From Candidatus Thiodiazotropha endoloripes (GTDB lineage: Bacteria; Pseudomonadota; Gammaproteobacteria; Chromatiales; Chromatiaceae): a stretch of DNA of 64,000 bases. Of the stretch, positions 21,414 through 24,343 are shown one piece after another. Below the pieces are notes generated by a model, which was given only the letters and a program-made list of their open reading frames with translations, searched no databases and was not told the origin of the DNA. A program made the position numbers and the translations under genes. The DNA lies in the NCBI GenBank assembly GCA_001709035.1, contig LVKA01000011.1, forward strand, positions 1,054,001 through 1,118,000, in the 5' to 3' direction. Within the stretch, counting starts at the first letter, position 1; each line of letters starts with the position of its first letter.

Positions 21414-21591
21414 GACTGAGTAGGTTGTGTTCAGGCGGCGTGTGCTGGCGTCTCTTTTAAGCTCACAATGATTGGCGCTTCAAGCCTGCTTTTGCCCGGT
21501 GTTGTGGCTGTTGCCAATGGAACAACCATTACCTGCGAGCCACGCCTTGATCAAAGGCAGGCTTGAAGCCCTGAACACAACCTACATAGTC
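21414..21591. repeat. nested inverted-repeat element (about 178 bp)
   Basis: The outer arms GTAGGTTGTGTTCAGG (21420-21435) and CCTGAACACAACCTAC (21570-21585) are perfect 16-bp inverted copies, extendable to 22 bp with two mismatches. The inner arms CTTCAAGCCTGCTTTTG (about 21479) and CAAAGGCAGGCTTGAAG (about 21552) pair with one mismatch. The element is non-coding, lies between selO and the double-barrel gene, and has the same two-arm design as 39649-39812, although the sequences differ. It could be a MITE or a large transcribed hairpin. Confidence 0.7.
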
Positions 21592-21745
21592 ACCGGGTCA
21601 ATATTAGGCATTCAATGGTGGAGTCTCGTCCGTGGTCGACTAAAATGGTCGCTATGAGAGCCTCTTGTCTGGAGAGAGGTTTCCTTAACAACCTTACCGT
21701 TGCTGCGTCCCAGGGACCTTCAGCAAAATAATAAACGGGTAGCTC

Positions 21746-24343
21746 ATGATTAAACAAAGCCACAAACCATTTGCCATTTCTCAGGGGTTTACATCGCTTA
21801 CCGTCGCCGCCGTATCGATCGGGGCCACGCTTTTTTCAAGTGGCCTTGAAGCGGCTACCGGGGTGCCGGACATCTACACCATCGATGCCAATGATCGCTC
21901 GGAAACCATCGTGGTAACGGTGAATGATCGTCTGGAGATCTCCACCCTGGAAGCGATCAATGCGATTGAAATCGTCTCGATCAGCACGCTCTCCAACTCC
22001 GCTGCAGGTTCCGTGCAGATCGATCCGGATGACAACTTCTCGATCAATGTGTTTCCCAATGCAGGATTCTCCGGCACTGTGACCTTCACCTATCGTGTCA
22101 GCGACATCAGAGGCACCAGCGATGACACCCTGGTGACCTTGAATATCGTCTCCTCCACCTCATCCCTGGAGACCGTCAACGATCACTATGTCAGCAGTGG
22201 CGGCGCAATCAATCTTTTTCCCCAGGAGAACGACATCCATCCGGGTATCGGGTTCCGTGTTGAGATTCTCTCCCAGCCCAGTCAAGGTACACTTTCCACA
22301 ACCGATGTTACCGGTCTCTATCTCTATACGCCTCCAGCGGATATCAGTGATCCGACCTCAGTCAGTTTCGACTATCGCCTGGTGGCTGACAGTGGTGAGG
22401 TAAGTGCACCGGCCAGTGTCACTATAAGCCTCGATCCGAGCCTGGATCCCATTGCCAATGCTGGTGCGGATGAGGCACAGAGCAGTCTTGCCAGGGTGAT
22501 GCAGGTGGCCTGTGACGCCAACTCGGCCGCTGGCGGATCACAGACCGATGCAGCCTTGGCTACCACCTGTAGCACCCTCTCGTCATTGAGCGGTTCAGAG
22601 CTTGACAGTGCACTGGAAGAGGTGCTGTTAAGGCAGGTGGGCGCCCAGGCGAACTCGATGAAAGGGGTGGCTGCAAACCAGATCAAGAATGTGGCTGGAC
22701 GTCTGCAGGAGATTCGTAGTGGTGTACCTGGTGTCAGCCTGGCCGGGTTGCAGGCCATCCTCAATGACCAGCAGCTCAATCTTGGACGCCTGCTGACCGG
22801 CATGCAACAGGGCGGAAGTGCTGGTGATGGCATGGCCAATGAGCGTCTGGGTGGGTTTATTACCGGAACGATCAATATCGGTGATGGGGAGTCGCGCAAC
22901 CGGGAGAACTCCTTCGAAATCGATAATCAGGAGTTGTTGGCCGGTCTCGACTACCGCTTCAACAACGATCTGGTGATGGGTACGGCACTCGGCTACAGCC
23001 GTTCTGAGACCAGTGAAAATGGTGGCGATACCGGTGTCGATGTGAATGGCTGGAACCTCTCGATCTACGGTAACTACTATCCGGCCAAAGATTGGTATGT
23101 GGATTGGTTGCTCGGTTATGGTGAGTCATCCATCGATACCAGTCGCTCAATCGATATCGGGGGTGTTGCCTCCCAGGCCGAGGGTGAAACGGATGCGGAT
23201 ATCTTCAGTGCCGTGGTTGGTACCGGATACAGCTACAACGTGCAAGCCTGGACGATCGACGGCTATACCGCGCTAGAGTATCGCAATAGTGAAATCGATG
23301 CTTACCGGGAGCGCAACGATGCCGGATTGGATATGAACATCTACAAGACCTCCACCGATGTTCTGTCCGGTCGGCTCGGTGTTCGGGCCAGTAACGCACT
23401 CAGCTTCAGCTTTGGTGTGCTGGTGCCGCAGTTCGAACTTGAGTTAGTCAAGGATTTCAAGAATGAAGCACCGGAGATCGAAGCGGAATTTGCATTGGTA
23501 CCGGAAGCGGGTAGCTTTACATTGACCAATGAGGATCCGGATGACAGCTATGTCAATGCGGGCATCTCACTCACCGGTCAATTCAAAAACGGCATCACAG
23601 GTTTTGTCCGGTACAGCACCATGCTGGCCAGGGATGATCTGGACCTGGATACCTGGCAGCTCGGCGCGCGCATGCCGTTTGGCGGTCCGGCAGAGGATAT
23701 CCATCTGGTGCAGGCCGGTGAGGATCAGCATGTTGCGGCGGGTCTGTTCATCGGTACCACCGGTCCCGGCCTGGCGCTGACTCTGCCTGTGCGCGGAGAG
23801 AGTCTCAACTTTCGAACTCTGCTGGCAACCATGCCCTATGACACGGAAGAGAAGCTCGATGATATCGAGTATGACATAGACTTGGATGTCTTCACTTGGG
23901 GAGCACTGCTGGATTGGCACCCGATGAATGGCGGGTTCAGAGTAAGCGGCGGACTCTATGCCCTGCAGTCCAATATCACAGCATCCGCTCAACCCACCGA
24001 GCCCGTGGAGATTGGCAGCACCACTTTCACTCCGGACCAGGTGGGCACCCTGGAGGCAGAGGTGGATTACAGCCGCAATCTGGCCCCCTATCTTGGTATC
24101 GGTTGGGGGAATGCGGTAAAGCCGGGCTCCAAGTTCAGCTTCAGTGTCGATTTCGGCATTCTGTTTACCGACAACCCGACGATTTCACTCGAAGCGGACA
24201 GTGCCCTGGCTGATGCCAACCCGGCGCTGAAAGCCCAACTGGAGTCGGAGCTGGCGGTTGAGGAGAACCGGATCAACAGTGAGGATCTGGATGACATCCG
24301 CTACTGGCCGGTGATCAATGTTGGTGTGTCCTACCACTTCTGA
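21746..24343 (+). CDS. autotransporter fused to a second outer-membrane beta-barrel
   Basis: 865 residues. A signal peptide (about 1-36) is followed by two Ig/cadherin-like beta modules (about 37-130 and 135-230), the second beginning TVNDHYVSSGGAINLFPQEN. A helical stretch (about 240-360) then leads into an autotransporter-type beta-barrel at about residues 368-650 (GGFITGTINIGD to TWQLGARMPFGG). After that, residues about 660-865 form a second complete barrel-like module of a different family (VAAGLFIGTTGPGLALTLPV, ALLDWHPMNGGFRVSGGLYA, APYLGIGWGNAVKPGSKFSF), ending in the typical outer-membrane C-terminus VINVGVSYHF. Members of that second family normally stand alone after a signal peptide. 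There is no frameshift. It is followed by a hairpin at 24411. Confidence 0.87.
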   Translation: MIKQSHKPFAISQGFTSLTVAAVSIGATLFSSGLEAATGVPDIYTIDANDRSETIVVTVNDRLEISTLEAINAIEIVSISTLSNSAAGSVQIDPDDNFSINVFPNAGFSGTVTFTYRVSDIRGTSDDTLVTLNIVSSTSSLETVNDHYVSSGGAINLFPQENDIHPGIGFRVEILSQPSQGTLSTTDVTGLYLYTPPADISDPTSVSFDYRLVADSGEVSAPASVTISLDPSLDPIANAGADEAQSSLARVMQVACDANSAAGGSQTDAALATTCSTLSSLSGSELDSALEEVLLRQVGAQANSMKGVAANQIKNVAGRLQEIRSGVPGVSLAGLQAILNDQQLNLGRLLTGMQQGGSAGDGMANERLGGFITGTINIGDGESRNRENSFEIDNQELLAGLDYRFNNDLVMGTALGYSRSETSENGGDTGVDVNGWNLSIYGNYYPAKDWYVDWLLGYGESSIDTSRSIDIGGVASQAEGETDADIFSAVVGTGYSYNVQAWTIDGYTALEYRNSEIDAYRERNDAGLDMNIYKTSTDVLSGRLGVRASNALSFSFGVLVPQFELELVKDFKNEAPEIEAEFALVPEAGSFTLTNEDPDDSYVNAGISLTGQFKNGITGFVRYSTMLARDDLDLDTWQLGARMPFGGPAEDIHLVQAGEDQHVAAGLFIGTTGPGLALTLPVRGESLNFRTLLATMPYDTEEKLDDIEYDIDLDVFTWGALLDWHPMNGGFRVSGGLYALQSNITASAQPTEPVEIGSTTFTPDQVGTLEAEVDYSRNLAPYLGIGWGNAVKPGSKFSFSVDFGILFTDNPTISLEADSALADANPALKAQLESELAVEENRINSEDLDDIRYWPVINVGVSYHF

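Follow-up and report, generated by a model that had tools for sequence, protein, structure and literature searches.

A predicted two-barrel autotransporter with a CarO-like second barrel from Candidatus Thiodiazotropha endoloripes

Outer-membrane proteins with several β-barrels in one chain have been described as a class by Solan et al. 2021 (PNAS 118(31), doi 10.1073/pnas.2104059118; as cited in PMC8592465 and PMC11494523), with YjbH/GfcD as an example. GfcD is reported to have 12 strands in its N-terminal barrel and 13 in its C-terminal one (PMC11494523). Outer-membrane proteins are usually described as carrying the decisive β-signal in their last strand (PMC10945584), and internal signals, besides the C-terminal one, are reportedly recognized by BamD (PMC10945584; PMC13067283). 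For the autotransporter EspP, a review describes release of the C-terminal, signal-bearing strand from the β-barrel assembly machinery (BAM) (PMC13067283). Glycine and ornithine reportedly pass CarO, which is said to lack a continuous channel (PMC7573547). Here we analyze a stretch of 64,000 nucleotides, the window, from Candidatus Thiodiazotropha endoloripes (assembly GCA_001709035.1, contig LVKA01000011.1, positions 1,054,001 to 1,118,000). Its positions 21746–24343 (+) hold a single frame of 865 codons without internal stop, the fusion gene, in which an autotransporter barrel is followed by a CarO-like barrel. The gene product is probably a two-barrel type V autotransporter, with two complete barrel units in one outer-membrane chain.

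The first barrel carries the domain of type Va autotransporters. The Pfam family PF03797 matched residues 375–624 over profile positions 6–255 of 255 (E 1.1e-52), and its score of 179.8 bits lies far above the curated cut-off of 26. A profile of the whole chain reached EstA in the PDB via residues 370–601 (E 5.8e-5). The models predict the passenger and the helix ahead of a 12-strand barrel that are characteristic of this type, but the translocator barrel is not at the C-terminus of the chain, since 220 residues lie beyond its last strand. In a comparison of 34 PF03797 proteins, mostly the best-scoring ones, the frame continued for 20–33 residues past the Pfam match in 33 cases and for 241 residues in the fusion protein. 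The last strand of barrel 1 covers residues 632–645 and ends in the internal β-signal-like sequence QLGARMPF. Residue 645, 21 positions past residue 624, is the final phenylalanine of GARMPF (640–645), the counterpart of the GLRMEF, GLRIEF or similar ends of unfused autotransporters in the genus. Barrel 1 thus ends where such proteins normally stop, as an earlier note made from the DNA sequence had proposed.

That note also described the tail as a complete module resembling a stand-alone family with its own signal peptide; the family can now be named. When the tail was searched alone against NCBIfam at E up to 10, the sole match was CarO (NF038067; E 4.2e-15, 55.8 bits, cut-off 300). The tails of all six fusion loci found in the contig search described below likewise matched no NCBIfam model but CarO (38.8–66.2 bits) when E values up to 1 were admitted. 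In the PDB, a profile built from the tail and its relatives reached the three CarO chains of known structure (E 1.7e-17 to 5e-14), and the whole-chain profile reached CarO via residues 669–864 (E 1.3e-4). Sequence profile and fold match therefore both place the tail with the CarO-like barrels, whereas assignment to the full CarO equivalog, an ornithine-uptake porin, was rejected given scores this far below 300 bits. Pfam was less sensitive: OMP_b-brl, with a cut-off of 28.7 bits, reached 30.2 bits on the full chain (best stretch 714–865) and fell below the cut-off, with 22.9 bits, on the tail alone. At E up to 1 Pfam gave no tail domain in the fusions L087, L088 and L090, and in L085 and L089 its best OMP_b-brl stretch sits in barrel 1.

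Stand-alone relatives of the tail occur in many genomes, including that of the fusion itself (G000:C10:402007-402645). They are mostly 220–236 residues long and align from just past the signal peptide to the last residue, so the tail corresponds to the whole module minus its signal peptide. With about 28–42% identity to the tail they are distant relatives and not split versions of the fusion gene. Two further CarO-like proteins, L123 5104-6585 (494 residues) and L158 5008-6606 (533 residues), have long N-terminal parts without a convincing Pfam family or autotransporter domain. By analogy with CarO the second barrel, a small one, may serve uptake or anchoring; the two sequences are too far apart to claim a substrate.

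In both structure models residues ~287–645 aligned to entire autotransporter units and residues ~653–865 to CarO (VIA-align). By prediction the chain thus holds two separate, different barrels in tandem, in line with the earlier note. Model confidence is low for the linker segment 646–658, one of the least certain parts of the prediction. The spacing across this linker is identical in all eight fusions aligned, with 58 residues between the end of barrel 1 and the conserved LDD/LDS motif of barrel 2.

The genus Candidatus Thiodiazotropha consists of sulfur-oxidizing lucinid clam symbionts. The full 865-codon gene is present in 4 of its 22 genomes with 94–95% identity. Over six pairs (Nei-Gojobori) the ratio of nonsynonymous to synonymous substitution rates (dN/dS) was 0.025–0.044 for barrel 1, 0.025–0.071 for barrel 2 and 0.58–1.55 for the signal peptide, which is the fastest-changing part of the gene. 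Both barrels are under purifying selection. A profile search of genome contigs with the tail, of which the best 80 of 232 relatives were followed via one peptide pattern so that further fusions may be unlisted, gave six fusions. Two of these, L085 (96% identity in the tail) and L086, apparently belong to genomes G011 and G013 of the genus, and four come from other genera, with full-length identities of 66% (Hahella ganghwensis), 49% (Hahella sp. PL25b), 48% (Hahella sp. HN01) and 41% (Mangrovitalea sediminis). Pfam, run on all of the six except L086, found both Big_9 and PF03797 in each of the five. When the eight fusions were aligned, both parts lay in one frame and no insertion or deletion occurred across the junction. 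Relatives with the two parts as separate genes and a stop near position 23690, which the earlier note had considered, did not emerge from this survey.

The fusion is rare. In the order (210 genomes) the tail profile found four fusions, each of them from this genus, and in the class (369 genomes) it found one, the window's own gene. The fusion profile at E 1e-60 again found only this gene among 398 genomes of the phylum, in a scan that scored at most a few candidates per genome. None of 188 matching plasmid records covered more than 80% of the query, and the 10 listed were autotransporter domains alone; a scan of viral contigs found no autotransporter relatives. What needs amending in the earlier note is the novelty, as two-barrel outer-membrane proteins had already been described as a class.

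The history of the fusion was followed in two trees, both from quick searches with support by the Shimodaira-Hasegawa-like approximate likelihood ratio test (SH-aLRT) only. The first, with 93 tail modules, unites the eight fusions in one clade (SH-aLRT 100). They formed one clade again among 31 barrel-1 domains, with or without one long-branched row and with one change between the fused and unfused states; in this tree, which carries a long-branch warning, 22 of the 23 unfused rows are from this genus, and autotransporters of other bacteria could fall inside the clade. Because the inner order is nearly identical in both trees and Thiodiazotropha adjoins H. ganghwensis, the sequences suggest one fusion event, after which Thiodiazotropha would have received the gene from a Hahella-like donor. 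We infer this direction from trees with weak support for the outermost splits and without a fixed root. In each host the G+C content of the gene differs from that of the surrounding DNA by no more than ~0.025.

To function as proposed, the protein would be exported by Sec and deliver two barrel units to the outer membrane on one chain. The 12-strand unit (~287–645) would act as an ordinary translocator with the helix in its pore, and the presumed passenger of two immunoglobulin (Ig)-like modules would be displayed outside. The chain would then pass via a ~17-residue linker in the periplasm into the CarO-like 8-strand barrel (664–865), at which it ends. Since the strand numbers 12 and 8 are both even, all barrel ends would lie in the periplasm, where the linker can join them, and the topology closes without strain. 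A loose β-signal pattern fits the last strand of barrel 1 in 8/8 fusions and that of barrel 2 in 7/8; 0.4% of random 8-mers of the same composition fit by chance. Unfused autotransporters fit it in 18 of 22 cases; the set held 24 loci, two without a long frame ending in F or W, and includes some genes twice. Because each barrel keeps a β-signal-like last strand, BAM would have to use one internal and one C-terminal signal and would insert each barrel by its own. We somewhat favor the view that this is a natural autotransporter with an internal β-signal, in which BAM builds two unlike barrels, barrel 1 translocates the passenger even though the chain does not end with its last strand, and a covalent one-to-one complex of Ig-like and CarO-like parts is kept in three NCBI orders (Chromatiales, Oceanospirillales and Pseudomonadales).

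The β-signal pattern occurs 2–6 times per chain, so that its fit to the last strands supports but does not prove signals there. In one structural alignment three EspP rows extend past the linker into the second barrel. This could be expected if both parts together formed one larger barrel of about 20 strands, the alternative raised in the earlier note. TonB-dependent receptors have 22 strands, and Foldseek lists them with alignments of more than 600 columns (best E 3.5e-10 and 4.0e-12). These matches have root-mean-square deviations of 21–32 Å and TM-scores of 0.14–0.26, which is no real superposition, and such receptors are not named among the 50 VIA-align matches listed per model, where each half fits a whole known barrel. 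A merged barrel was rejected and is highly improbable. The same holds for a read-through accident, in which a lost stop or a wrong assembly would have left the tail as a passive appendage. The rarity of the fusion among the class and phylum genomes would agree with such an error, but the frame is shared by four of the 22 genomes of the genus and the four loci of other genera, dN/dS of the tail is about as low as that of barrel 1, and the CarO-like module is kept to its last strand. A wrong assembly or a recent error was thus rejected, and we see hardly any chance for this explanation as a whole.

Other explanations accept two barrels and differ in what the fusion is for. Barrel 2 might aid assembly and not transport, by offering a C-terminal β-signal or a lateral partner that helps BAM to take a slow autotransporter. 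The C-terminal signal does now belong to barrel 2, and internal signals are reportedly read by BamD (PMC10945584); however, barrel 1 keeps its own signal-like end and unfused homologues are present in the same genus, which makes this role unlikely. It is also rather doubtful that insertion is followed by cleavage in the linker, in which case the fusion would be only a way to make two separate barrels in equal amounts. Many autotransporters are processed, and the linker is poorly defined in the models and would be exposed in the periplasm, but a spacing that is fixed in 8/8 fusions down to 41% identity is more than a cutting site needs. The intact two-barrel chain most likely serves to display an Ig-like module, for adhesion or binding, on the cell surface in permanent one-to-one pairing with a small barrel for uptake or anchoring.

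Table 1. Layout of the fusion gene and the encoded protein (positions in the window)
Feature	Position	Strand	Basis
Fusion gene: passenger, autotransporter barrel and CarO-like barrel, 865 residues	21746..24343	+	Open frame; conserved in relatives
Residues 1-38, Sec-type signal peptide (by eye)	21746..21859	+	Hydrophobic stretch; Ala37-Thr38 invariant in 8/8 fusions
Residues 39-232, two Ig-like (Big_9 / cadherin-like) modules, presumed passenger	21860..22441	+	Pfam, 2 stretches
Residues 233-367, linker with helices, Cys256 and Cys275	22442..22846	+	Models, structural alignments, sequence alignment
Residues 368-645, autotransporter barrel, 12 long strands	22847..23680	+	PF03797; AlphaFold2 (AF2) strands; VIA-align; end motif
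Residues 646-662, inter-barrel linker, presumed periplasmic	23681..23731	+	Models; alignment of 8 fusions
Residues 664-865, CarO-like barrel, C-terminal end VINVGVSYHF	23735..24340	+	

The N-terminal part is likely a surface module. Pfam gave two Big_9 stretches in the fusion protein (the best at residues 40–132), which bears out the two Ig-like modules proposed earlier. Within the following segment the long helix 283–324 of the models falls in the part that aligned with known autotransporter units. The two cysteines in front of barrel 1 (window 22511–22513 and 22568–22570) are invariant in 8/8 fusions, and a disulfide between them is possible.

In the window the fusion gene is flanked by SelO and a DsbA-like gene. 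Its neighbors in other hosts are PqiA and MlaD genes, peptidase S15 and CHASE kinase genes, or protein kinase and phosphonate transporter genes. In another genome of the genus (G009) only both ends of the fusion gene are left between the SelO and DsbA genes, as a relic (L029 5872-6174). In a further one (G008) two short, collinear stretches at this place still show traces of the region for the signal peptide (L197 ~2270-2328; E 2e-4 and 9e-4). Judged by these remnants, the fusion gene was lost within the genus. SelO beside DsbA was not found in the stretches examined of the other 16 genomes. Close upstream of the H. ganghwensis fusion gene lies a second, unfused Big_9 and PF03797 autotransporter (L087 806-2470), and in Mangrovitalea a caspase-like/Sel1 gene and a protein kinase gene precede the fusion (L090 730-3959). 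The window's own genome has three more autotransporters (L001, L002, L004) near one another (G000:C15:51607-57518).

The 5′ leader of the gene (window 21620–21745) is conserved in four genomes. An RNA regulator was rejected here: Rfam, searched with E up to 5, gave six matches that were all far below the gathering score, and the leader folds hardly better than shuffled sequences (z −0.94). A promoter scan gave two sites where 2.7 were expected. Further upstream lies an inverted-repeat stretch (window 21428–21603) resembling a miniature inverted-repeat transposable element (MITE). Two more copies of it (76–80% identity) and a fragment of 39 bases lie at other places in the genome; nothing similar stands at this place in an alignment of three sister genomes.

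The protein poses a directly testable folding question. A conserved, natural autotransporter barrel must close and be released with 220 more residues attached that are themselves a barrel. The protein is thus a test case for whether a β-signal needs a C-terminal position, and a substrate for asking whether BAM takes one barrel at a time and in which order. If the proposed arrangement is true, a surface-display module would be permanently coupled to a small barrel. Literature searches found no paper on Thiodiazotropha autotransporters and none on double-barrel autotransporters.

The closest described systems each share a part of this architecture. With the type Va autotransporters (PF03797; EstA, AaaA, NalP, EspP) the fusion protein has the leader, the N-terminal presumed passenger, the helix and the 12-strand barrel in common, but where the 33 others end soon after the Pfam match it adds a second barrel. 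With CarO of Acinetobacter baumannii (4FUV, 4RL9, 4RLB) the tail shares the 8-strand barrel fold and the sequence profile; it differs in scoring far below the equivalog cut-off, in lacking a signal peptide of its own and in its place behind another barrel. Like the multi-barrel proteins YjbH/GfcD it has, by prediction, two barrel domains in one chain, whereas the description of GfcD cited above places a periplasmic domain between the two barrels and names no autotransporter or CarO module. The pairing found here may be in the list of Solan et al. The two-barrel class is thus already known, and the combination of an autotransporter with a CarO-like barrel is a real, conserved variant of it.
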